From Bifidobacteriaceae bacterium (lineage in GTDB: Bacteria > Actinomycetota > Actinomycetes > Actinomycetales > WQXJ01): 64,000 bases of DNA. The stretch spans positions 28,910 to 92,909 of the forward strand of contig JAISXH010000059.1 in NCBI GenBank assembly GCA_031270825.1, read 5' to 3'. Position numbers and translations under genes: made by a program. This document shows, in pieces, positions 11,105 to 64,000 of this stretch (positions are counted from its first letter, which is position 1; the number at the start of each line of letters is the position of its first letter). The notes beneath the pieces are model-generated. The model ran no database searches, was not told the DNA's origin, and was given only the letters and a program-made list of their open reading frames with translations.

Positions 11105-13423
11105 GTGACCACCAAACCAACCGCGACCGTTCTCGGCTACCCGCGCCAGGGACCCCATCGGGAGCTGAAGACAGCCGTCGAAGCCTACTGGGCTGGTCGC
11201 GCCTCGGCCGAGGAACTCGACGCCGCCACCCAGGCGCTGCGCCTGGGCCGGCTGGCCGAATTGGCAGCCGCCGGTTTGGGGGAGGTCCCCAGCAACGACT
11301 TCTCGCTGTATGACCACGTCCTGGACACGCTCTGGCTGCTTGGCGCCATCCCAGAGCGGTTCCAGCGGTTCGGCGAGACGCACGCTGCCGCCCGCCCGGC
11401 CACCGATCTGGACTTGTACTTCGCGCTCGCCCGCGGCGCGGAAGGCCTGGAGCCGCTGGAGATGACCAAATGGTTCGACACCAACTATCACTACTTGGTC
11501 CCGGAGCTAGGCCCTGACACCGCGTTCACCCTCAATTCAGCCAAAGTCCTGGCCGAGTTCAACGAGGCGAAACAGGCCGGTCTGGTCACCCGGCCGGTGC
11601 TGCTAGGGCCGGTCAGCTTCCTCTTGCTGGCCAAGCCCGCAGACGCCGACGCCAGCGCGGGGAGCCCATTCCGGCCGCTTGACCTGCTGGATCGCATCCT
11701 GCCGCTATATGTGGAGCTGCTGGCGCGTTTGCGCGAGCACGGCGTCGAATGGGTCCAACTGGATGAGCCCTGTTTGGTTCTGGACCAGCCTCAGGAGGTG
11801 CTGGACCGCACCGCGCAGGCTTATCAAGTGTTGGGGGGCGCGGCGCACCGCCCCGCCATCCTGGTCGCCACCTACTTCGACCGCCTGGGCGAGGCCCTGC
11901 CGGTGTTGGCGGCCGCTCCGATCGAGGGGCTGGCCTTGGATTTCACCGGCCCGGCGGAGGCGAATCTGGAGCACCTCGAGCAGATCGGCCCCCTGCGGGG
12001 CAAGCGATTGGTGGCGGGCCTGATCGACGGGCGCAATATCTGGACGGCGGACCTGGACCAGGCGCTCACCCGGGCCGAGCGTCTGGCGCCGCTGGCCGAG
12101 CGGCTGGACGTGGCGGCATCGTGCTCCTTGTTGCATGTGCCCCTGGATGTCGAACTGGAGGAGGCGGCGCCGGCGGAACTCGACGGCTGGCTGGCCTTCG
12201 CCCGCCAGAAGCTGGCCGAGGCGGTGATCGTGGCGCGGGGGCTGGCCGGCGGACGCGGCGCCATTGGCGAAGAGCTTCTCCGCAACCGCGACGTGCTGGC
12301 CCGGCGGGCGGGTTCGGCGCTGACCCACGTCGCGGCGGTGCGCGCGCGGCTGGCCGCGCTCGGGGCCAAGCTGGAACGCCGGTCCACGCCCTACGCCGAG
12401 CGGGCGGCGGCGCAGCAGTCGTTGCTGGGGCTGCCGGAACTGCCGACCACCACCATCGGGTCTTTCCCGCAGACGGCTCGGCTCCGTTCGGCGCGGGCGG
12501 CGCGGCGGCGCGGGGCGCTGACCGAAGCCGAGTACCAGGACGTGATGCGGGCGGAGGTCGCTGCTGTGATCGAGGCGCAGGAGCGCTTGGGGCTCGATGT
12601 CCTGGTGCACGGCGAGCCGGAGCGCAACGACATGGTGCAGTATTTCGCCGAGCAGTTAGACGGGTACTGGGCCAGCCAGAACGGTTGGGTGCAGTCCTAT
12701 GGCAGCCGCTACGTGCGCCCGCCGATCCTGTTCGGGGACGTGTCGCGGCCGGCCGCCATGACCGTTCCGTGGACCACCTACGCGCAGAGCCTGACTGATC
12801 GTCCGGTCAAGGGCATGCTGACGGGACCGGTGACAATGCTGGCGTGGTCGTTCGTGCGGGACGATCAGCCGCTGGCGGCGACGGCCGCCCAGGTGGCCCT
12901 GGCGCTCAGGGACGAAGTCCTGGACCTGGAGCGGGCGGGAACGGCCATCATCCAGGTGGACGAGCCGGCTTTGCGGGAGTTGTTGCCGCTCAGACGGGCC
13001 GACCGTCCCGCCTATCTGGACTGGGCGGTGGGAGCATTCTGGCTGACCACCGCGGGCGTGGCCGATTCGACGCAGATTCACACCCATATGTGCTACGCCG
13101 AATTCGGGGACATCCTGGAGGCCATTGTGGCCATGGATCCGGACGTGATCTCGTTGGAGGCAGCCCGTTCGGGGGCCGGCGTGATCGCCGCCCTGGGCGC
13201 CTCGGGGCTGGTCGGGGCCGTTGGTCCGGGCGTCTGGGACATCCATTCACCGCGGGTTCCCTCCCTTGAGGAGCTGGTCGGCAAGGTGGCGGCGGTCCGG
13301 TCCGCGTTCCAGGACAGAGCGTGGGTCAACCCCGACTGCGGTCTGAAAACGCGCCGTCCTCAGGAAGTCGAGGCGGCCTTGGCCAACCTGGTCGCGGCGG
13401 CCCGTCAGGTCCGCGCCTCCTAG
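11105..13423 (+). CDS. metE: Cobalamin-independent methionine synthase
   Basis: GYPRQGPHRELKTAVEAYW; TTTIGSFPQT; HGEPERNDMVQYFAEQLDGY; DIHSPRVPSLEEL; VNPDCGLKTR. Confidence 0.95.
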   Translation: MTTKPTATVLGYPRQGPHRELKTAVEAYWAGRASAEELDAATQALRLGRLAELAAAGLGEVPSNDFSLYDHVLDTLWLLGAIPERFQRFGETHAAARPATDLDLYFALARGAEGLEPLEMTKWFDTNYHYLVPELGPDTAFTLNSAKVLAEFNEAKQAGLVTRPVLLGPVSFLLLAKPADADASAGSPFRPLDLLDRILPLYVELLARLREHGVEWVQLDEPCLVLDQPQEVLDRTAQAYQVLGGAAHRPAILVATYFDRLGEALPVLAAAPIEGLALDFTGPAEANLEHLEQIGPLRGKRLVAGLIDGRNIWTADLDQALTRAERLAPLAERLDVAASCSLLHVPLDVELEEAAPAELDGWLAFARQKLAEAVIVARGLAGGRGAIGEELLRNRDVLARRAGSALTHVAAVRARLAALGAKLERRSTPYAERAAAQQSLLGLPELPTTTIGSFPQTARLRSARAARRRGALTEAEYQDVMRAEVAAVIEAQERLGLDVLVHGEPERNDMVQYFAEQLDGYWASQNGWVQSYGSRYVRPPILFGDVSRPAAMTVPWTTYAQSLTDRPVKGMLTGPVTMLAWSFVRDDQPLAATAAQVALALRDEVLDLERAGTAIIQVDEPALRELLPLRRADRPAYLDWAVGAFWLTTAGVADSTQIHTHMCYAEFGDILEAIVAMDPDVISLEAARSGAGVIAALGASGLVGAVGPGVWDIHSPRVPSLEELVGKVAAVRSAFQDRAWVNPDCGLKTRRPQEVEAALANLVAAARQVRAS

Positions 13424-22715: not shown

Positions 22716-24073
22716 CGCCCCCGGCCCGCTGGCGGCTCTTGGAGGTTATGGGGTCCTCCGCTGGCGGCATCAAAGCCCATGTCTCACAGCTCTCAGCGGC
22801 GCTGAACAGTGCTGGTCATCGAGTTGTGGTGGCGGCGCCGCGCCAGGGGCTGCCAGGCTTGGGCGAGGCGCCGAAAAGGCAGCTGGGTTGGGGTTGGTTG
22901 CTGGCCGTGCCAGCCTTGGCCCGGGCGATGGCCGGGGCGGACGCCGTGCACGCCCATGGACTGCGCGCCGCCGCCGTGTCGGCGACGCTGGTCAGGCTGA
23001 GGCGACTGAGACGGCCGAGACGGCCGAGGCGGCTCGGCCGGCCGCCGTTCAGAGCGCCCATCGTAGTTGTTACCTTGCACAATGCCCCGCCTGCGGCGGG
23101 CTGGCGGGCGGTGGGGGCGAATTGGCTCGGCCGGCTGGCCGCCAAGGCCGACCACGTGCTGGTGGTCAGCCCGGACCTCGAGGGCTGGATCGAACGCCTG
23201 GGCGCCACAGCGGTCGAGCGCGCGATAGTGCCAGTGCGCTCCTTGGCGCCGCCGGATAGCGGCCGGGCCGCCACCAGGCGCGAACTCGGCGTCTCCGAAT
23301 TCCCCGGTTCCCGTGCCCCGGCTGTGCCAAGTGAAGACGCCGGGCCGGGCGACCGGGCCGCGACCAGCCCGAACGCCGAGCCGGCCGACCAAGTTGCGAC
23401 CAACCCAGCCGCCGATCTGGGCGATCCGTTCGCGACCGGTCAGGCCGCTAGGCCGCAAGACCCGGCCGGGACCAGCCCAAACGCCGGCCCGGGCCGGCCG
23501 TTGTTGGTCACAGTGGCGCGCTTGGCCCACCAAAAGGGCCTGGACATTCTGATCGAAGCGGCGGCGCGGCTGGGCCGGCGCGATCCCGCCCCGCTATGGC
23601 TGGTGGCCGGCGCGGGCCCGGACCGGGCGAAACTGGAAGCCCTGATCGCCGAGACCGGCGCGCCGGTCAAGCTGTTGGGCCCCCGCGACGACGTGGCGGC
23701 CTTGTACCAAGCCGCCGATCTAGTGGTCGGCACCTCCCGATGGGAAGGCCAGCCGATCGCGCTGCGCGAGGCCATGACGCTCGGGGCCGCGGTGGTGGCC
23801 ACAGACGTGGGCGGCACCAAGGCGGCGCTGGCAGGTGGGGCGCTGCTGACCCAAGCGGATGCTGGGGCGCTGGCAGACGGCGTCGGGCAACTGCTGGACA
23901 ACCCGGAAGAGCTGCGTGAGCTGCGCCGACGCGGGGCTGCGGCGGCCAGGCGATTCCCCGGCCAGGCCGAAATGCTGGCCCAGGCGCTGAGGTTGTACGG
24001 CCAACGGCCGCCGGCCGGCGCCAGGAATTCTCCAAGATCGCCACGCCCGGAGCGGAACCGCCGTCGGTTCTAA
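22691..24073 (+). CDS. Glycosyltransferase (GT4/GT1-like)
   Basis: [62 protein letters not shown]; start may be GTG 22712. Confidence 0.8.
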
Positions 24074-27582: not shown

Positions 27583-29766
27583 GTGTCAGCCAAGATTCCC
27601 GAGTACTCCGCCCATCACCTGCAAGTGTTGGAGGGTCTGGAGGCGGTGCGCAAGCGGCCCGGCATGTACATCGGGTCGACCGATGAACGCGGATTGATGC
27701 ATTGCGCCTGGGAGATCATCGACAACGCGGTCGATGAGGCGCTGGGCGGCTTCTGCGATGTGATCGACGTGACGCTGTGCCAGGACGGGTCGGTCGAGGT
27801 CCGGGACAACGGTCGCGGCATCCCCGTCGACATCGAACCGAAGACGGGCCTCAGCGGCGTCGAGGTGGTGTTCACCAAACTGCACGCGGGGGCCAAGTTC
27901 GGCGGGGCCGGTTCAGGCTACGGCGCGGCCGGCGGCCTGCACGGCGTGGGCGCGTCGGTGGTCAACGCCCTGTCCGCCAGGTTGGACGCCGAAGTGGCCC
28001 GCGGCGGGAAACGGCACGTCATGCGCTTCCACCGGGGAGAGCCAGGTTTGTACGATGACGTTCGCGGCCTTGGTCCGAGCGCGCCGTTCACGCCGTTCAC
28101 CGAGGCCTCGCTGTTGGAGGTGGCCGGACGGACCGGCAGAGGGGTCACCGGCACGCGGGTGCGCTTCTGGCCCGATCCGCAGATTTTCGCCGATCCGGGG
28201 GCGTTCTCGCTCGAAGCCTTGCTGGACCGGGCCCGCCAGACCTCGTTTCTGGTCCCAGGTCTGAAGATCACAGTTCGGGACGAACGTGGCGCCGATGCGG
28301 TCGAAGAGGTCTTCCAGCATGCCGGCGGACTGACCGATTACGTCCAGTATCTGGCGCCGGACCAGCCGATCCAGTCGGTCTGGCGGATCAAAGGCGAGGA
28401 CGCTTTCGTGGAGACCGTGCAGGCGTTGGACGAGGAGGGCCATCTCAGTCCGACCGAAGTCGAGCGCACCTGCGAAGTCGAGCTGGCGCTACGCTGGGGG
28501 ACCGGCTATGACCCGGTGGTCAAGTCGTTCGTGAACATCATCGCCACGCCCAAGGGCGGAACCCATCTGCAAGGTTTCGAGCAAGGCCTGTTGAAGGCTG
28601 TGCGAGCCCAGGTCGAGGCCAATTCGCGCCGCCTCAAGACCGGCGGCAAAGCCGGCGGAAAGAACGGCTCCGCTGAACGAGTCGAAAAGGACGACGTCCT
28701 GGCCGGCTTGACGGCTGTGCTCGCGGTCCGTCTGGCCGAGCCCCAATTCGAGGGGCAGACCAAGGAGGTCTTGGGCACCGGCCCGGTGCGCGGCATCGTC
28801 GCCAAGATCGTGGCGGAAGGGCTGTCGAAACGCCTGACCTCGACCAAGCGGGACCACAAGGCGGAATCCTTTCTGGTGTTGGAGAAGATCGTCGCGGAGA
28901 TGCGCGCGCGGGTGGCCGCGCGGACGCACAAGGAGATCTCGCGGCGCAAGAACGCGCTTGAGACCTCGTCGCTGCCGGCCAAACTGGCGGACTGCCGCAG
29001 TTCGGACGTGGAGCGCTCGGAGTTGTTCATTGTCGAGGGCGACTCCGCCCTGGGCACTGCCAAACTGGCTCGCCAATCTGACTTTCAGGCTTTGCTGCCG
29101 ATCCGAGGCAAGATTCTGAACACGCAGAAGGCCTCGATCACGGACATGCTCAAGAACGCCGAATGCGCGGCCATCATCCAGGTGATCGGCGCGGGTTCGG
29201 GGCGAACATTCGACCTGGAGCAGTCCCGCTACGGCAAAGTCATCTTGATGACCGACGCGGACGTGGACGGCGCCCACATCCGCACGCTGCTGCTGACGTT
29301 GTTCTTCCGCTACATGCGCCCGCTGGTGGAGGCCGGGCGGGTGTACGCGGCGGTGCCGCCGCTCCACCGGGTGCTGGTCTCAGGCGGTCGCGGCGCCGGC
29401 GGCGGGCCGGGCCGCGGGGCCGCAGGGTCGTCAAGCGGTGATGCTGGCGGCGGCCGGGGCGGTCCCGAGGCGATCTACACCTACTCGGAGCGGGAGCTGA
29501 AGACACTGCTGGCGCGACTCGACCGGCAGGGCCGCAAGTACGCGCAGCCGGTCCAGCGCTACAAGGGTCTGGGAGAGATGGACGCCGACCAGCTAGCGGG
29601 CACCACCATGGATCCGCACGGCCGGACACTGCGCCGGGTCACCATGGCCGACGCCGCCGCGGCGGAGAGGATGTTCGAGTTGCTGATGGGCACCGAGGTG
29701 GGGCCCAGGCGAGACTTCCTGATCGAGGGCGCGGCGGCGCTGGACCGTGATTTGATCGACGCCTGA
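27583..29766 (+). CDS. parE: DNA topoisomerase IV / gyrase subunit B
   Basis: [97 protein letters not shown]. Confidence 0.9.
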
Positions 29767-42756: not shown

Positions 42757-42972
42757 CCAGGCCGTCCGAAAATGGGGCGCCGCTGGGGCCGGAAATCATC
42801 CGAGTCGGGTCGAACCCGCAGGCCAGGACCGGAACACCTGACGACACGCGCCAACAGGCCGATGGAGCTAGATCGTCCCGGCCGCAGGCGCGACACAGAT
42901 CTCAGCGGCCTCGCCACGTTCGCGCTACACTTGTTTCGACAGATTCGATTATTGCGCTTAGGAGGATGGCCG

Positions 42973-43413
42973 ATGAGGGACATCGCGACGCTGGTTCCCG
43001 GTCCGGCGGACACCGAACTGGCGGTGTCCGCCCTGCGGGAGCTCGACGCCGTGCTCGGCGCAGAGGGCCCAGTCCGGCTGCGGCTTGGTGGTCAGGCCGG
43101 CGAGGTGGAGGTCCCCCGGTCCGCGCTGGCCGCGCTGGCGCGGGTGCTCGCCAGCTTCGCGCATGGCGAGGGCGTGACCGTCCTCCCCTCGCAGGCGGAG
43201 TTGACGACCCAGCAGGCGGCGGATGCGCTGCGTGTGTCGCGCCCGTTCCTGATCGGCCTGCTGGACGCTGGGCAGATCGAGTATCGTCTGGTCGGCACCC
43301 ACCGCCGGGTGAAGGCTGCGTCTCTGATCCGCTACATGCGCGATGACGACGCGCGCCGCCAGGCAGCAGCCGACGAGCTGGCGGCCGAGACCCGCGAACT
43401 CGGATTCGCCTGA
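42973..43413 (+). CDS. Excisionase/MerR-like HTH protein, probable antitoxin
   Basis: LTTQQAADALRVSRPFLIGLLDAGQIEYRLVGTHRRVKAASL; overlaps the downstream PIN gene. Confidence 0.75.
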   Translation: MRDIATLVPGPADTELAVSALRELDAVLGAEGPVRLRLGGQAGEVEVPRSALAALARVLASFAHGEGVTVLPSQAELTTQQAADALRVSRPFLIGLLDAGQIEYRLVGTHRRVKAASLIRYMRDDDARRQAAADELAAETRELGFA

Positions 43414-44012
43414 TGCCGGTCGTCGTCTACGACGCCAACGTGCTCTACCCCTCGACGCTGCGCGACGTGCTGATCCGCGTCGGGATCGCCCAGTTGGTGC
43501 GGGCAAAGTGGACGGAACGGATCCTCGAAGAGGTGTTCGGTAGCCTGCGCGCCAACCGCCCCGACCTCGACACCGCACGCCTGGATCGCACCCGCCGTCT
43601 GATGAACGGCGCGATCCGCGATGTGACTGTGGCCGGCTACGAGCACTTGATTGACCAACTCGACCTTCCCGACCCCGGCGACCGGCACGTTCTGGCCGCC
43701 GCGCTCCACGCAGGAGCCCAGGTAATCGTCACCCGCAACCTCCGCGATTTCCCCGCCGACCGGCTAACCGCCTGGGGTGTGGAGGCGCAGCATCCAGACG
43801 ACTTCCTCACCGAACTGCACCAGGACCACCCGGACACCCTCAGTGGGATCGTCGCCGCGATCGCCCGTGCGTGGGGCGACGACGCGAAGCCCGATGACGT
43901 CCTAGACCGCCTCGCCGTCGACGCGCCCTGCGCTGCCGCCCTCGCGCGCCGGACAGTCGAGGGGCGCAGGTCGAGCCCGCTTCGCCCTCCCCCGGCGGCC
44001 AGGCGGCGCTGA
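43413..44012 (+). CDS. PIN-domain toxin
   Basis: VVVYDANVLYPSTLRDVLI...DRHVLAAALHAGAQVIVTRNLRDFPA. Confidence 0.8.
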   Translation: MPVVVYDANVLYPSTLRDVLIRVGIAQLVRAKWTERILEEVFGSLRANRPDLDTARLDRTRRLMNGAIRDVTVAGYEHLIDQLDLPDPGDRHVLAAALHAGAQVIVTRNLRDFPADRLTAWGVEAQHPDDFLTELHQDHPDTLSGIVAAIARAWGDDAKPDDVLDRLAVDAPCAAALARRTVEGRRSSPLRPPPAARRR

Positions 44013-44467
44013 TCGGCTCGGACGGGCGGCGTCAATCCGTTCCGATAGCGGCCCGGAGTACCAGTGCAAGAGCAGACCGAAAAGGCGGCCCCGCGCCGGC
44101 AGGGCCGGCACTGCTCCGGATCTGGGGACCTCTGCCCTCGAACGCCGTGAACCCGTCTTGGACGGTCATCGTCACGTCTTGGCGCGAGGACCGCGGCATG
44201 GCTGCTTCTTTGTGCGTCGCGGCAGGGGTGACCGCGACATCTGGTACAGCCCACTGGCATCGGTCGCAACTCCCCAGCCGTGGCGGCGCCCTGCGGGTTC
44301 TGGTCCGTGACCAACCGGCCGTCGGCTTCCGGCTGGCTGCCGGGGACGACCCGCACCGCGGCGTGTTCGCCTGCGCAGAGCACGGCATCGTACTCTGCTG
44401 GGTTCGACCTCCGCGAACGATGCGAGCGACGCTAGCCGCGCCGCCGCGGCCCGCGCCGCGCAACGGC

Positions 44468-44884
44468 TCAGGCGAACGGGTCGGTCAGGCTGAGGCCGGC
44501 GATCGGCTGGAAGTCGCGCACGTTGCGCGTCGCCAGTCGGTGGCCGCCGGCCAGGCAGATCCCGGCGATCTGAGCGTCCGCCAGCGACAGCGTCCGGCCG
44601 ATCGACTCGCATCTGGCCAACAGTTCGGCGGTCGCGCGGGCGGCCGACAGGTCGTAGCTCGCTATCCGCTGGCCGACCTGGTCGACGATAGCGCGCCACC
44701 GCGACGTCAGCCCGTCGCGGCGCCGGCCCTCCGGCAGTCGGCCGAGGCCGCGCTCGATCTCCTCGACGGTGACGACGCATACCGTCAGTTCGGCGGGGCC
44801 CAGCCCCTGCGCCCAGGCCAGCACGTTCGGCGCCGGCGCCTCCCGCATCATCTCCGACACGACGTTGGTGTCAGCGATGATCAT
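44468..44884 (-). CDS. VapC-family PIN toxin
   Basis: MIIADTNVVSEMMREAPAPNVLAW...LSLADAQIAGICLAGGHRLATRNVRDFQPI. Confidence 0.85.
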   Translation of the reverse strand: MIIADTNVVSEMMREAPAPNVLAWAQGLGPAELTVCVVTVEEIERGLGRLPEGRRRDGLTSRWRAIVDQVGQRIASYDLSAARATAELLARCESIGRTLSLADAQIAGICLAGGHRLATRNVRDFQPIAGLSLTDPFA

Positions 44885-45126
44885 GGCAGTTCCACGGCCC
44901 GCGGCGCGTCTGTCCGCTCCGGCGCCGGGATCTCCGCGCCGCCGACTTCCGTTGCCGCGGCGTGGAGCGCCAGGAGGAGGTTCTGTTCGGGACCACGGGT
45001 GGCGGAATCCAGAATGGACCGCACTTCCGCCTCGACTGAGCGGCCGTGTTGCGCCGCCAGCAGGCGCAGGCGGCCGTGGGTCTGCGGGTCTAGTTTGCGA
45101 ACGGTTATGGCGCTCACGGGCGTCAC
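44881..45126 (-). CDS. FitA/VapB-like antitoxin
   Basis: ITVRKLDPQTHGRLRLLAAQHGRSVEAEVRSIL; overlaps vapC start by 4 nt. Confidence 0.85.
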   Translation of the reverse strand: MTPVSAITVRKLDPQTHGRLRLLAAQHGRSVEAEVRSILDSATRGPEQNLLLALHAAATEVGGAEIPAPERTDAPRAVELP

Positions 45127-45305
45127 CTCCTGATGGCAATGCTATCAGAGGGCGCGGCGCCCTGGCGCGCTGGCGCGGGTCGGGTTCGTTGGTGGGCGTG
45201 TGGGACTTGGGTTGTCTGGGGCGCGCCGCAGCCTGCGGCGGGGACGGGTTCTAGTCCCTCTGAGTATGATGGACATACAATGGACTCAGCCAAGAGGGGA
45301 GTGTC

Positions 45306-45647
45306 ATGGCCGGAGCCGCCGAGATGGAGCGGATCAATTTCCGCGCTGACCGGAAAGTCAGGCAGGACGCAGAGCGAGTGTTCCACGCGCTCGGCTTGAA
45401 CCTGTCCGACGGGTTGAACGTGTTCTTGCGCCGGGTGGCCGCGGAACAGGCCATCCCGTTCCGGTTGGCGCTGACGCGCGAAGAGATCCTCGGGCCGGAG
45501 TTGGCCGCCCGCGAGGCGGCGATCCGCCGGGGCGTCATGGCGCAGACCGAGCGTGCCCCGGACGAGGGCAGGCCGGTGGCCCGTTTCGATGACGCGCTCG
45601 GCAAGCCCTACCTCGAGTATCCGGACGGGACGCGCGAGTTCCGCTGA
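45306..45647 (+). CDS. RelB/DinJ-family antitoxin without adjacent toxin
   Basis: INFRADRKVRQDAERVFHALGLNLSDGLNVFLRRVAAEQAIPF. Confidence 0.75.
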   Translation: MAGAAEMERINFRADRKVRQDAERVFHALGLNLSDGLNVFLRRVAAEQAIPFRLALTREEILGPELAAREAAIRRGVMAQTERAPDEGRPVARFDDALGKPYLEYPDGTREFR

Positions 45648-45838: not shown

Positions 45839-45996
45839 GCAAATACCAGAACACGAAGTGATGGTATTCGGTCGAACTCTGTTTCGGGTTGCAGCAGCAG
45901 GTTCAGCCAGCTTCGTGGGCCACATCCAGGCGGTGAAGAACTCGGCCGCGATGGCCGACAGGAAGACCTCTTGGCCAGCGAAAACGTCGGGCTGTC

Positions 45997-46040
45997 GGTC
46001 GGGACGGCGGGATTTGAACCCGCGACCCCTTGACCCCCAG
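45997..46040 (-). other. Truncated 3' half of tRNA-Pro(GGG): candidate attachment site (att) of an integrative element
   Basis: Reverse complement CTGGGGGTCAAGGGGTCGCGGGTTCAAATCCCGCCGTCCCGACC = anticodon loop with GGG, T-arm GTTCAAAT and acceptor 3' strand; no matching 5' half upstream. Confidence 0.8.
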
Positions 46041-46217
46041 GCGCCTTGAGTAGGCCCCGTAGACCCCTTATCTGCGGTATTGCCGTTTCATAGGCGCTCT
46101 TGGGACGTCTCCTGTTGCACGGTTTGCTCGCTGTTGGTCACTTAATTGGTCCACTTCAGATCAGTCGCAGTTGGAAATGTCCCCGCTGCGTTCGCCTTCG
46201 ACTCCTAGGATGGGGAA

Positions 46218-48545
46218 GTGCTTCGCCGACTTGATGTAACGAGTTCTTGGCGGTCGCTGGATGTGGGGTTCTGGCCGCAAGATGTGCCGATGGGCCGACG
46301 CACGGTTGTGTATGGCCATAACGGTAGCGGCAAGTCCACGCTGGCGGATCTGCTGCTGTCCATCAGCCAACGCAGGTGTGCTGCCGAGGTGGTTTGGGAG
46401 GGCGCCGAGAAACGGATCACCCGAATCGGACGGGACAGTGAGGACGCCCCGCCGCCGATCGCGGTGTTCACGCGGACTTGGGTCGAGGCCAACCTTGCTC
46501 AGTTCCTTGACGGAGACAACGCGGCGGCGATCGTGACTCTTGGCGAGTCGGCGATCGAGTCGAAGAGGCGGGCGGAGCAACTGGCTGGGGAGTTGGTTCG
46601 ATTACGCGAAGTGGCTAGGGCCGCTGCAACGAAGCAGGACGATGAGGCTCGCCGCGCCGACCAGGCAGTTGAGCGGGTTCAGGCCGCGATAGTCGACCGC
46701 CTCCGACGGTTCGACTACGAGCGGTTCACCAAGAACCGGTACAACATGCCGAGGGTCAGGGACCTGCTTCGCGGCTGCGAAGGTGGTTTTCCGGATGATG
46801 CTGCTTGTGAGGCGGCTGTCGGCGTGCTGGAGGGTGGCGTGCCGGAGTCAGTCGGAAGCCTTACGCGGATGCCGGAGGAGATAGGGGAACGGCTCGGCGG
46901 ATTGTCCGCGATTCTCGGCGTGACTCCGTCGCGGCAGGCCATCGCGGAGCTGGAAAGCGATTCTGGCGCCCAAAGCTGGGTGGAAGACGGGCTGGCGCTG
47001 CACGGGGATCGCGAACGCTGCTTGTTCTGCGATGGCGCTGTCACGTCCGAGCGGCGGCAGCGGCTCGCCGCCCACTTCGATGAGAGTTGGCTGCGGATAC
47101 GGCACGACGCGACCGCGCTGCTCGCAGAGGTACAACGATACCGGCGCGCCCTCGCAGACTGGCATTCGACTCTCCCGGGAGCCTCATCCCTCGCGGTGGA
47201 CCTCCAGGGGAGATTCGCCGAGATCCTGGCCAGGGTCACGGGCGACGTCGAGGCTCGTGTCGCCGGTCTGTCAGCGGTGGAGCTTGCCCTCGAGGAGAAG
47301 ACCCGAGATCCGAATGCGACTCCTGCGGCGCCGGATTGGTCGGCCTCGGTCGGAGTCGTGGGATGGGATGAGCTTGAGGGAATCCTCAATGAGCACAACC
47401 GGAGAGCGGCGGACCACGACGCTCTCGCTGATGAGGCGAAGAAAGCGATCCTCAGCCATGTGGTGGGGTCGAACTGTGAGGAATTCAGGGGCCTGGAGAA
47501 GAAGGCCGAGGACGCCCGGGAGAAGGCGAAGGAAGTAGCCGACGCCGTCCGAGCCGCTGAATCTGAGCTTGATCGGCTCCGACAGGAGCAGTTCACTACG
47601 AAGGCGATGGCGGACAAGCTGACCAGCGACCTGGTGCGTGTCTACGGGAAGGACCACCTCAGCGTGGCCGTCACTGAGGACGGGAAGTCCTATGCCTGTC
47701 GCCGTCCCGATGGGCCCGCGACTCACCTGAGCCAGGGCGAGCGAACGACCCTGTCGCTTTTGTACTTCCTGCGGAACCTTCAGGACCAGCAAGGGCCGCA
47801 GGCAAAGCCGTCTGAGCGGATCGTAGTCGTTGACGACCCGTCCAGCTCGCTCGACAGGGAATCGTTGTTCGCTACCCACCAGTGGCTGCTTGACGCCCTT
47901 GAGCCCTTCGGCCAATTCGTGATCCTGACACACGACTTCGACCTGCTACGCCTGTTCATCAACTCCCACCGGACCGCGTGGGGCAAGTCACGGAAAGCCG
48001 TTGCCCAAGGCGACAGTGCCGAGGAGTTGTTCCCCAAGGCCGCGTTCCTGGAGATGTTCGCGGCGCCGTCCTCCGGCGCGCGCACATCGAGGATCGGTGC
48101 GCTGCCCGGATTGCTGCTCAAAAACACGTCCGAGTACACATACCTGTTCTCGATGGTCATGGCCGGTGTGGCCGACTCCGGGGACCACGAGCGTCTGTTC
48201 CTTCTGCCGAACGCGGCCCGCCGTGTTCTGGAGGTTTTCGCGAGCTACAAAGCCCCCCACCTGCCGGACTTCAGATCGCAACTCGAGTCCTTTGCGCAGA
48301 CCGGCGCGGGCGAGCCGTTCCGTGACGTCTACGACTTCTGCAACAGGTACTCCCACGGTGAAGGGCGCGAGAGCGCCGATGCGCTCGACGCTCGAACCGT
48401 CCATGGGCAGATCCGGAGATGTATGGAGTTCCTCCGCACGGTTGATGACGAGCACTTCAAGAGGATGTGCCGGGCGGCGAGCATCGATGACGCCCATCCC
48501 CTTGTGGGCATCCATTCGCCGCCGACGGCGACTATGGGTTCCTGA
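46218..48545 (+). CDS. AAA_13/RloC-PrrC-like ATPase, probable defence cargo
   Basis: YGHNGSGKSTLADLLL Walker A, LFCDG CxxC-type motif in coiled coil, LSQGERTTLSLLYFLRNL signature, VVDDPSSSLD Walker B, LTHDFDLLR. Confidence 0.8.
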   Translation: MLRRLDVTSSWRSLDVGFWPQDVPMGRRTVVYGHNGSGKSTLADLLLSISQRRCAAEVVWEGAEKRITRIGRDSEDAPPPIAVFTRTWVEANLAQFLDGDNAAAIVTLGESAIESKRRAEQLAGELVRLREVARAAATKQDDEARRADQAVERVQAAIVDRLRRFDYERFTKNRYNMPRVRDLLRGCEGGFPDDAACEAAVGVLEGGVPESVGSLTRMPEEIGERLGGLSAILGVTPSRQAIAELESDSGAQSWVEDGLALHGDRERCLFCDGAVTSERRQRLAAHFDESWLRIRHDATALLAEVQRYRRALADWHSTLPGASSLAVDLQGRFAEILARVTGDVEARVAGLSAVELALEEKTRDPNATPAAPDWSASVGVVGWDELEGILNEHNRRAADHDALADEAKKAILSHVVGSNCEEFRGLEKKAEDAREKAKEVADAVRAAESELDRLRQEQFTTKAMADKLTSDLVRVYGKDHLSVAVTEDGKSYACRRPDGPATHLSQGERTTLSLLYFLRNLQDQQGPQAKPSERIVVVDDPSSSLDRESLFATHQWLLDALEPFGQFVILTHDFDLLRLFINSHRTAWGKSRKAVAQGDSAEELFPKAAFLEMFAAPSSGARTSRIGALPGLLLKNTSEYTYLFSMVMAGVADSGDHERLFLLPNAARRVLEVFASYKAPHLPDFRSQLESFAQTGAGEPFRDVYDFCNRYSHGEGRESADALDARTVHGQIRRCMEFLRTVDDEHFKRMCRAASIDDAHPLVGIHSPPTATMGS

Positions 48546-60234: not shown

Positions 60235-63200
60235 TCAGAGGGCGGGTGATCCGGGTCCGGGAGTGGCCGGGGCCTGAGCGGCGGCCGGCGTCGGGGGCGC
60301 CGGGCGCGGGGCCTGGTTGGCCAGGGCGCGTATCCGCTGGGCGTCCCTCCGTTGGACGATGCCGTCCGGCCGCCCCCAGGGTTCAGGCCCGTCGACTTGG
60401 TAGCGGTCCCGGTAGGCGGCTGTGGCCAGCGCCGCCGCCGTCCAGCGTTCCGCCGCCGCCGGATCAGCCGGCCTAGGGCCGAGCGCCGCCAGCCACGGCT
60501 CGCCCGCCGCCTGGGCGCGGGCCAACACTTCGGCGGCGCGGGCCTGGAGCGCCGTACGGCGTTCCGCCAACGCCTGCGCCATCGCGGGGCTCGCCGGGAC
60601 AGGCGCCTCGGGGAACATCCCCAACAAGTAGACGGCCCGGCGGCGGGGCTGGTTCGGGCGGACCTCTGCTTGGTCGAGCACGGTGGCGAGGCGGGCGTGG
60701 AGGACAGCGGCCGGGTCGGCGGCATCGTCCAACGGCCTCGCCGCGGCCAGCCGCGGGAACTCGGCCTCCGGGTCCCAACCCGCTGCCAACGCTCGGTGCA
60801 GCTCGGCGGCCAGCGCGCCGAACGCCTCCGACGCGACCACACGGTCGGCTTGGGCCGGGTCGTGGAGGGATGAGCGGACCAGGGCGGCCCACCGGTCGTG
60901 GAGGGAGGCCTGGGCGAGGGTCTCCCACTCGGCGCCCAACTGGGTGGTGTTCCCCCAAGCCTCCGCCTCCGCCCGGATGGTTTGGTGGGCGGACAGCTCC
61001 GCGCCCGAGTTCCGCAACACCCCGGCCAGCACCGACCGGGGCGTGGGCTCGTCCGGGTCGGCGGGGTGCGGGACGGTGTGGTCCTGGTCGGGGCGGTCTG
61101 TTGCGACGTACGCCCGGTTGGAGTCGCGTCCCCTGGTCATGGCGACATACAGGTTCTCTCTGGTGGTGGCGGGGGTGACGACCACGTGGGCGGTGTCGAC
61201 GGTGACGCCTTGCGCCCGGTGCGACGTGACCGCGTATCCGAGGTCGAGATGTTCGGCTGTGTAGGCGGCTGGGAGGGTGACGGTCCCGCCGGTCGACATC
61301 CCGGCGCGGCGCGCCGTGACGCCGCCGCCTGGGTGGACTTTGAGAACGGTCCACCGGTCCCCGTTGCGGACCCACCCGGTGTTCCCCGCTTGGAGGCGCC
61401 GATGGTTGCGGCGGGTGATCACCAGATCGCCCCGGGAGGCGTGGCACCCGTCCGCGAGGGCGGCCTCCCGCCCGGGGTTGACCTGGCCGGCGATGATCCG
61501 CTCCGAGCGGGCCCGTTGGTTCAACGCCCGGACCGTCTCCAACGAGTCGGCTACCAGCAGGGACGCCCGGCCAGCCTCGAGGTCTGTCCGCCAGGCTTGG
61601 TAGGCGGCCTCGACCATGCCGTCTTGGTCCCCGCCGGCGATCCGCCCGTGGGCATGGTAGGCGTCTATGGCGGCCGGGTTGGCGTGTCTGAGCGCGAGCG
61701 AGGCGGGCCGCTCCCAGTCCGCGTGGAACCGGCGCACGTCCGCCAACTCCGGCGGGTCGGAGCGTTCTGTGACGAGCAGGTTGAACGCTCCGCCGGCGTC
61801 GACGGCTTGGAGTTGCGCCCAGTCGCCGACCAGCAGCAGCTTCGCGCCCGCGCCGGCGGCTTGCCTCGCTATCTGTTCCAAGGTGAATGTGCCGGCGAGG
61901 GACGCCTCGTCGACGATGGCGAGCTGCCCCGCCCGGAAGGTCGTTCCTTTGAGGCGGTGGTCGGTGAGCCATTTCGCGGTGTTCTCGGTCGGGATGCCGA
62001 GGTCTTCGGCCAACACTGCGGCGGCGGTCGCGGACGGCGCCAACCCGACCACGGAGCCCGCCCCGTGGGTTTCCTCCCACGCGCGGCGCAGGGCGGCGAG
62101 CGCTGTGGTCTTCCCTGCCCCCGCCGGGCCGACGAGCACGTCCACTACACGTCCGGAGGTGGCGGCCGCGGCGATGGCTTGGGCTTGGTCGTCGCCGAGG
62201 GTCCGCCCGGCCGGGTCCGGGCGGGACACGGCCCGCTCGACGGCGGCGAACCGGGCGGCCGGGCCACCCAGGTCCCTCGACCAGGCGAGGAGCGCGGCCT
62301 CGGCGTCCAACAGGTCTTGGGAGGAGTAGAGGTCCATGTGGCGGGGACGGAACCGCCTCGACCCGTCCACGCGGGCGAACCCGTCCGGGACGGACAGCTC
62401 GGGGGGTGTCAGCCTGACGGAGGCGGCCTCGGCGGCGTCCACCACCAGCCTCGACACCGCCTCCCGGTCTTGGAGTGTGGCGAACCGCCAACCCATCAAC
62501 TGGCGGGACGCCTCCGCGTGCAGGTTCCACCGCCGCCACGTCGAGCGCCGCTCGCCGACCACCGCGACCACCGAGGCTCCGACCTCGGCGACGAGGTCGA
62601 GGGGCACGTCGTCGGCCCGCAACAACACCGGGGCGGCCTCCGGGTCGGTGACCCGGCGCGCCCAGGCCAACGGGTCCGTCCCGAGGACCGGCCGGGCGCG
62701 TCCCGCCCACTCGGCCGTCAGGTCCGCCAAGGACCGGATGACCTTGTCTTGGCGGGTCGCCAACGTCGCCTGTTGGCGGTAGCGGATCACCGTCCGCCGG
62801 GACGGCGACCGCCCGTGGCGTTCGGTGTGCTCGCTGATCAGGCGGGCGGTCTCGGCGTCGATGTCCCCAGACCTGGACGAGAACTCTCGCACCAGGTCTT
62901 CCCCGACCCCGGCGATCTCCCAGGCGGGGCTCCGGTCCCGGCCCCGTTCCCGCGTCTCCCAGCGGACCCCGACAGCGGCCGCCAACCGGTCCGCCAACAC
63001 CGCGTTGTACAACTCGGAGACCGCCACCGTCGCCGCGAACATGGGCCGCCCGTCGATCGCCCGCCACCGGCCGTCAACCGCTGTGGGGACCTTGTTGCTG
63101 ACCACGACGTGGGTGTGCAGCTGGGGGTCCCCGGCCCTGGAGTCGTAGTGGTCGAACGCGGTCGCCAACACTCCTCCCACGTCGACCTGCAACGACGGGC

Positions 63201-63789
63201 CGCCCCTGGTGGACGCGCCGACCCTGGTCGCCACAACCTCCCGCTCCATGAACCCCAACACCTCCGCGACGGCCTGGTGGTGCGCGGCGGCGATCAGCTC
63301 CTGCAACCCCGCGTCCGCGAGCCCCCACAACACCGACACCGACTTCGGGACGCTGAACGTGAAGTCGTAGGCGGCGACAGTGCGGCGCGTGCCCTTGGCG
63401 GCTTCCTCCCGACCGATCCGGTCTGCGAGGATCGCGCGGTCGGCATCGTGCAATCCGGGGGGCGACGCGGCGACGCGAGCGGCGGCGCGCTCCGCCGCCG
63501 TGCGGTGCGCCAGGTAGGGGCGGCCGAGGACGTCCCCGGTGATGGGATTGCGGCCGTCGCCTATGAGCAATTGCAGCTGCGCCTCGGTGACCGTGTCCCC
63601 GGCGCGCAACACCTCCGGTTGCAACGCCTGCAATCCGGTGCCCATCCACCGGCCCGGAGGTGTGCCTGACTCCGCGTAATAGCGAGTCAGCGGGGTCGAC
63701 AACGACCTGTCGCCGTCGCCTGCCGCCACCGACTTCAACAGGTACTTGTAGCCGTCCCCGGCCGACATCAACCGCATCGACACCGTCAT
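60235..63789 (-). CDS. MobF-family (TrwC/TraA-like) conjugative relaxase-helicase
   Basis: TVAAYDFTFSVPKSVSVLWGL, GDPQLHTHVVVSNKV HxH motif, LVGPAGAGKTTALAALR helicase Walker A, VTSHRAQGVTVDTAHVVV. Confidence 0.9.
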   Translation of the reverse strand: MTVSMRLMSAGDGYKYLLKSVAAGDGDRSLSTPLTRYYAESGTPPGRWMGTGLQALQPEVLRAGDTVTEAQLQLLIGDGRNPITGDVLGRPYLAHRTAAERAAARVAASPPGLHDADRAILADRIGREEAAKGTRRTVAAYDFTFSVPKSVSVLWGLADAGLQELIAAAHHQAVAEVLGFMEREVVATRVGASTRGGPSLQVDVGGVLATAFDHYDSRAGDPQLHTHVVVSNKVPTAVDGRWRAIDGRPMFAATVAVSELYNAVLADRLAAAVGVRWETRERGRDRSPAWEIAGVGEDLVREFSSRSGDIDAETARLISEHTERHGRSPSRRTVIRYRQQATLATRQDKVIRSLADLTAEWAGRARPVLGTDPLAWARRVTDPEAAPVLLRADDVPLDLVAEVGASVVAVVGERRSTWRRWNLHAEASRQLMGWRFATLQDREAVSRLVVDAAEAASVRLTPPELSVPDGFARVDGSRRFRPRHMDLYSSQDLLDAEAALLAWSRDLGGPAARFAAVERAVSRPDPAGRTLGDDQAQAIAAAATSGRVVDVLVGPAGAGKTTALAALRRAWEETHGAGSVVGLAPSATAAAVLAEDLGIPTENTAKWLTDHRLKGTTFRAGQLAIVDEASLAGTFTLEQIARQAAGAGAKLLLVGDWAQLQAVDAGGAFNLLVTERSDPPELADVRRFHADWERPASLALRHANPAAIDAYHAHGRIAGGDQDGMVEAAYQAWRTDLEAGRASLLVADSLETVRALNQRARSERIIAGQVNPGREAALADGCHASRGDLVITRRNHRRLQAGNTGWVRNGDRWTVLKVHPGGGVTARRAGMSTGGTVTLPAAYTAEHLDLGYAVTSHRAQGVTVDTAHVVVTPATTRENLYVAMTRGRDSNRAYVATDRPDQDHTVPHPADPDEPTPRSVLAGVLRNSGAELSAHQTIRAEAEAWGNTTQLGAEWETLAQASLHDRWAALVRSSLHDPAQADRVVASEAFGALAAELHRALAAGWDPEAEFPRLAAARPLDDAADPAAVLHARLATVLDQAEVRPNQPRRRAVYLLGMFPEAPVPASPAMAQALAERRTALQARAAEVLARAQAAGEPWLAALGPRPADPAAAERWTAAALATAAYRDRYQVDGPEPWGRPDGIVQRRDAQRIRALANQAPRPAPPTPAAAQAPATPGPGSPAL

Positions 63790-64000
63790 CGTGGCGCCTC
63801 CCTCCGCCTGGAAGGTGCGATAGGATGGCCGATGCCGCCGCCGATGCGACAGGCGTGTCAACGCAACGGGCCTCGTCAGCAAGAAGTGTGGTGCACGCTG
63901 AAGGGCGGACCCGGTCCTAGAGCGTGTCAGCGGCGAGAGCGAGAGTTCAAGCGGCCGGGCGGAGACGCAGTTAGCCGGTCGGATCGCGCCGGTCGGCCCC

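Follow-up and report, generated by a model that had tools for sequence, protein, structure and literature searches.

The tRNA-Pro(GGG) 3' half found in the window, that is, in the whole 64,000-nt stretch of DNA analyzed here, is very probably the attR of a MobF-type integrative conjugative (or mobilizable) element, whose attB is the tRNA-Pro(GGG) gene and whose attP holds a complete replacement tRNA. The window corresponds to positions 28910–92909 of contig C62 in a 2.94-Mb genome assembled in 70 contigs (95% complete), and the contig and the window stop together at window base 64000. The features are summarized in Table 1.

Table 1. Features of the window linked to the att site and the element (window positions)
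Feature	Positions	Strand	Basis
Second tRNA 3'-tail remnant CAGCCCGAC-GTTTTCGCTGGCCA, directly outside attR	45972..45996	-	Matches 3' end and terminator of the complete C3 tRNA
attR: host tRNA-Pro(GGG) 3' half, first anticodon-loop base to 3' end	45997..46040	-	Sequence; perfect acceptor and anticodon stem pairing with the C3 5' half
att core CTGGGGG, common to attL (C3) and attR	46034..46040	-	Comparison of att ends; in many relatives it continues as far as CTGGGGGTCAAGGGGT
Distal attP arm; repeats resembling arm sites, GTGGACCA / GTGACCA, lie at about 46134–46155	46041..46157	-	Similarity to relatives' junctions
Cargo: AAA_13 / SMC-like ATPase, candidate defence family PDC-S06	46218..48545	+	Pfam PF13166 2.8e-88; PADLOC PDC-S06 1.7e-110
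MobF (TrwC-type) relaxase-helicase	60235..63882	-	NF041492 2.8e-71; Pfam TrwC 1.1e-88

Read on the minus strand, the fragment is CTGGGGGTCAAGGGGTCGCGGGTTCAAATCCCGCCGTCCCGACC and comprises the anticodon loop, the variable loop, the T arm and the 3' acceptor strand of tRNA-Pro(GGG). The original prediction of a tRNA-Pro(GGG) 3' half cut in the anticodon loop is confirmed both by this sequence and by a matching 5' half on contig C3, and the peptide RDLNPRP, pointed out in the open reading frames, is indeed the T arm read on the plus strand. ARAGORN identifies no tRNA in the 64-kb window, and the Rfam tRNA match to the fragment is below the threshold (19.6 bits vs. 29). With up to three mismatches allowed, the assembly as a whole has a single copy of the fragment's 33-base 3' part. 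As an exact 3' complement of the C3 5' half, the fragment is, judging by sequence, not a chance similarity.

The orphan 5' half starts at C3:23499 (CGGGACG...CTTGACTGGGGG; in full, CGGGACGTGGCGCAGTTTGGTAGCGCACTTGACTGGGGG) and is separated by a 43-nt spacer lacking a T arm (23538–23580) from a complete tRNA-Pro(GGG) at C3:23581–23655, which lies 40 bp short of the contig end; no other GGG proline tRNA was identified in the assembly. Joined together, the C3 5' half and the window 3' half yield a tRNA-Pro(GGG) fold with all stems paired, and these 76 bases are 99% identical to the intact tRNA-Pro(GGG) of a genome from the same family (G013, the best of 59 genomes searched). On the contrary, the C3 5' half combined with the 3' half of the complete gene, or the converse, yields acceptor mismatches; the 3' half of the complete tRNA differs from the fragment at four positions, including the acceptor stem (CAGCCCG vs. 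CGTCCCG). As the halves join perfectly and the cross-combinations mismatch, one host gene was cut in the anticodon loop, with its 3' half now in the window and its 5' half on C3. Since the complete gene is a different allele with the orphaned host 5' half ahead of it, the fragment is the original host 3' half, and the complete gene, an element-borne replacement. An intact tRNA-Pro had been expected beyond 64 kb, and there is a complete tRNA-Pro(GGG) at the end of C3, but, being a different allele, it is not the parent of the fragment, and no intact tRNA identical to the fragment was found in the assembly. For the same reason, the suggested duplication of the 3' half does not hold in its usual form, in which the other end would have a rebuilt target tRNA: the complete gene of another allele stands behind the orphaned host 5' half. 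Both C62 and C3 end at the sites concerned, the assembly contains no join between them, and the last 101 bp of the window do not overlap other contigs; we infer that the element runs from C62 to C3, in agreement with the earlier claim that the fragment marks one end of an integrated element extending toward higher coordinates, which is supported with this end as attR.

The same arrangement, a host 5' half followed by a 41–54 nt spacer and a second tRNA start, is observed in 102 stretches of GTDB actinobacterial genomes; in this and the other counts genomes are taken as independent, many of them being Microbacterium or Leucobacter. In six of the 102 stretches the complete gene is not recognized by the search pattern, in some cases because the fetched stretch ends there. 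Genera with the split-and-replace layout include Microbacterium, Leucobacter, Agromyces, Brachybacterium, Miniimonas, Micropruina, Janibacter, Cellulosimicrobium, and Nocardia. Closer to the studied genome, half, spacer and complete gene are found in 4 of 10 genomes of its own genus and three other genera of the order, some of these relatives being fragmented MAGs; the relatives from the genus itself with this layout are G001, G002, and G006. The MAGs of this genus are, as we assume, of termite-gut origin. The attL spacers are homologous between genera and, in nearly all loci, contain no T arm. Moreover, in eight stretches two stacked 5' halves precede the complete gene, as is expected if a second element splits the tRNA brought by the first one. 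Both in the studied genome and in its relatives, attB lies within the tRNA gene, the core is short (CTGGGGG, up to about CTGGGGGTCAAGGGGT), and there is no tRNA reconstruction; with such a short core, integration would not rebuild the tRNA, and the element therefore would supply a complete one.

By eye, many attL spacers (e.g., those of L139 and L171, as well as C3:23538–23580) keep a short hairpin and a segment able to pair with the 5' strand of the host acceptor. To the eye, such spacers look like remains of an attP core with an entire 3' half, which would have decayed once the complete tRNA had been gained.

Of 41 genomes, 27 have a free 3' half cut at the same boundary as in the window, and in 22 genomes attL and the free 3' half are found on the same contig and strand, 6–109 kb apart. 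In 19 of 20 scored genomes (0 of 20000 permutations), the acceptor strands of the free 3' half and of the 5' half are complementary; the figure becomes 19 of 22 if two genomes left out of the count, G306 (a point change, CAGTCCG) and G320 (both fragments of the other allele), are taken as failures. The match of the free 3' half to the 5' half holds in all 11 genomes where the 5' half and the complete gene differ. Among the scored genomes only G336 fails, and its junction seems to be an internal one between nested elements; both G320 and G336 have the look of nested or tandem elements. In three other Brachybacterium genomes an uninterrupted tRNA continues into the sequence found behind the free 3' half, this flank being partly a terminator palindrome that recurs in those genomes. 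The empty-site comparison was done in Brachybacterium because the genes that flank the fragment on its left show no conservation next to the tRNA in the relatives examined from the genus of the studied genome.

These data bear on one alternative, a canonical tDNA island. In that case the host tRNA would be restored at attL by a 3' half carried by the element; the window fragment would represent the displaced 3' end, and the 5' half on C3 would be a decayed duplicate with no relation to it. The rebuilt-tRNA signature is given as a rule by Islander (PMC4383910), and in several genomes of the same genus or family (G004, G007, G009, G012–G015) we do observe a single intact tRNA-Pro(GGG) followed by varied DNA. 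However, a rebuilt tRNA should pair with the allele of the displaced fragment, and the complete tRNA of the studied genome does not; the layout of 5' half, spacer and complete gene recurs in the 102 stretches with a narrow range of spacer lengths; and the free 3' half matches the 5' half and not the complete gene, which contradicts this explanation for the family as a whole. We consider it improbable.

A relaxase had been expected to follow the fragment, and it is real: the MobF protein is 60% identical over 1162 aa to the relaxase of an att-delimited Brachybacterium element, and matches the relaxases of 11 other elements examined. A ParB-like gene, claimed as well, was not recovered, no ParB family match being observed among the ORFs scanned. 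Overall, 17 of 22 att-delimited intervals contain a MobF relaxase. Besides MobF, the 36.5-kb element of Brachybacterium equifaecis (C17:26125–62679) encodes an M23 peptidase and a coupling protein of the TraG/VirD4 type. No T4SS or coupling protein is recognized in the 18 kb of the studied element that are assembled, and most window genes at 48.6–60 kb have no Pfam or PHROGs match. For the gene of the PDC-S06 ATPase, a 71% identical stretch is found in Microbacterium dauci at the same position beside attR. The 117 bp inside the fragment resemble, at 70–73% DNA similarity, the corresponding junctions of two sister genomes, G005 and G003, with GGACCA/TGACCA repeats at -100 and about -112 (-111/-113) from the core, as in many other elements. 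As the relaxase, the junction arm repeats and the placement of PDC-S06 are common to the elements of relatives, we take the studied element to be a member of this ICE family.

Of the 80 loci listed, 54 have a tyrosine integrase of one and the same family (Pfam Phage_integrase) behind the complete tRNA, in antisense orientation. Among matches listed, identity to this integrase does not exceed about 32% in 50,697 phage records or about 35% in a plasmid collection, and the att region has only tRNA-like matches in the latter. Searching the studied assembly with Pfam PF00589 and the family protein yields only distant integrases (the best at 28% identity), several of them in groups of three; the assembly lacks the integrase end of the element. 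Within the genus, only an integrase fragment (G001) and a broken copy (G009) are present near the tRNA, and hence the studied element may be immobile.

Two further explanations are very unlikely, and about equally so. Two tRNA-Pro(GGG) genes could once have stood in tandem, one of them having decayed and its 3' half having been moved by a rearrangement with no element involved; an inverted decayed 3'-half relic on C3 (13207–13251) and the tail remnant beside the window fragment would then mark a scarred hot spot. This does not agree with homologous spacers in different genera, nearly all lacking the T arm, nor with the conserved arm-like repeats that flank the free 3' halves on the inside and the relaxases and integrases in the intervals. 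The element could also be a non-conjugative prophage with tRNA-dependent lysogeny, since its integration logic is the same as in mycobacteriophages Fionnbharth and Gaia (PMC10865867), but the MobF relaxase, the T4SS coupling protein of the Brachybacterium element, the lack of virion genes seen in the elements examined and the low identity of the integrase to phage proteins argue against this.

Candidate promoters were sought with the actinobacterial -10 motif TANNNT, a crude proxy, with the expectation taken from shuffled sequences. The motif is present upstream of the host 5' halves in 91 of 101 loci (shuffled mean 28) and depleted in the spacers preceding the complete tRNA (8 of 101 vs. a shuffled mean of 34), and also in the 110 nt of the distal element ends, which would lie upstream of the tRNA in the circle (3 of 30 vs. 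15.7). As both the spacer and the distal end are depleted of -10 motifs, while the region upstream of the host 5' half has them, the replacement tRNA is probably promoterless and transcribed from the host promoter.

Hence the following model of integration by a replacing element. A tyrosine integrase would recombine the short anticodon-loop core (CTGGGGG...) with attP, so that the host gene would be cut into a 5' half keeping the promoter (on C3) and a promoterless 3' half (in the window). The attP would leave the 3' half unrestored, holding instead a complete tRNA-Pro(GGG) with its own terminator 41–54 nt behind the core. Once integrated, this tRNA would come immediately after the host promoter and the orphaned 5' half and become the tRNA-Pro(GGG) of the cell, and a later element could split the replacement again, producing stacks of 5' halves. 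Sequence comparison establishes the split, the matching halves, the replacement gene and its layout across the family, as well as the integrase family, the arm repeats and the linkage to MobF. The replacement tRNA, the sole GGG proline tRNA identified, would presumably be needed for viability; part of its codons might, however, be read by tRNA-Pro(TGG), which the genome also has. Somewhat less firmly, we favor a broader reading, that is, an Actinomycetota ICE family with a promoterless tRNA-Pro(GGG) cassette in attP, silent in the circle and on only once integrated behind the promoter of the destroyed tRNA gene, so that chromosomal tRNA-Pro alleles would be repeatedly overwritten by horizontal transfer.

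The replacement principle itself is known from phages. In tRNA-dependent lysogeny, described by Guerrero-Bustamante and Hatfull (2024; PMC10865867) for Fionnbharth, LeBron, Mollymur, and Gaia with Lys-TTT, Ile2-CAT or Leu-CAA, the integrating phage disrupts a host tRNA gene and makes up for the loss with its own tRNA of that isotype. The tRNA of Fionnbharth lies away from attP, overlapping a protein gene elsewhere in the phage, and has its own strong measured promoter (PMC10865867). Here, in contrast, the vehicles are MobF conjugative elements, the isotype is Pro-GGG, and the tRNA is built into attP 41–54 nt from the core, behind the host promoter; thus the conjugative vehicle, the isotype and the expression logic differ. 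By its gene content the vehicle is not a temperate phage, and the system works like tRNA-dependent lysogeny but is not lysogeny. With canonical tDNA islands (Islander, PMC4383910) it shares the anticodon-loop crossover, the displaced 3' fragment and the integrase beside a complete tRNA; unlike in those islands, a whole foreign gene is added, and the host gene is not restored from the host 5' and island 3' parts. In Sinorhizobium meliloti, an inactivated host tRNA is likewise replaced by an element-borne isoacceptor (PMC11476347), but the carriers are alphaproteobacterial phage-related sequences, and the passages concerned describe no promoter-linked attP layout. ICEs and AICEs of Actinobacteria, surveyed in PMC3218068, are similarly conjugative and integrate by tyrosine recombinases, often at tRNA genes; by keyword, that survey has no mention of tRNA-Pro, complete tRNA or anticodon. 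Our searches of the open-licence literature turned up no paper on a conjugative counterpart whose attP includes the tRNA.

Our observations would extend tRNA-dependent integration from phages to conjugative elements, with a new isotype and a compact layout, the latter explaining how a promoterless replacement tRNA could be expressed. In many Actinobacteria (Microbacterium, Leucobacter, Brachybacterium, the presumed termite-gut MAGs, and others) a conserved, probably important tRNA gene would not be the ancestral host copy. The layout also provides an easy DNA signature for precise ICE boundaries, and tools expecting a rebuilt tRNA may miss such elements. Finally, it is relevant to an issue that the 2024 paper leaves undecided, namely whether the core was already short when the tRNA was acquired or became so only afterwards (PMC10865867).

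Several additional features are observed. The segment directly outside attR, CAGCCCGACGTTTTCGCTGGCCA, corresponds to the tail of the other tRNA allele together with its terminator, which suggests a relic of an older element or of a rearrangement to the left of the fragment. On C3 (locus L077), about 10 kb from the tRNA locus, the minus strand of 13207–13251 contains another tRNA-Pro 3' half, decayed and inverted, with a terminator-like stretch after it; it is a relic of another integration. Beside attR, the window region 42924–45647 includes a PIN_3-domain gene (43413–44012) and a RelB-like antitoxin gene (45306–45647), and its part 42924–43949 has a translated match in the attR region of Microbacterium ginsengisoli (L278), so the left flank may also be mobile cargo. 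In G005, positions 1–314 of contig C127 (L083) form a junction of the distal arm, core, spacer and complete tRNA; it was considered as a circle junction, but with uvrB about 5 kb further on, an inner junction of a tandem array is equally likely. At least three tyrosine recombinase genes in a row are found at contig ends of G000, on C15 (37883–40302), C55 (803–3218), and C29 (109–5084), presumably resembling "recombinase in trio" elements.
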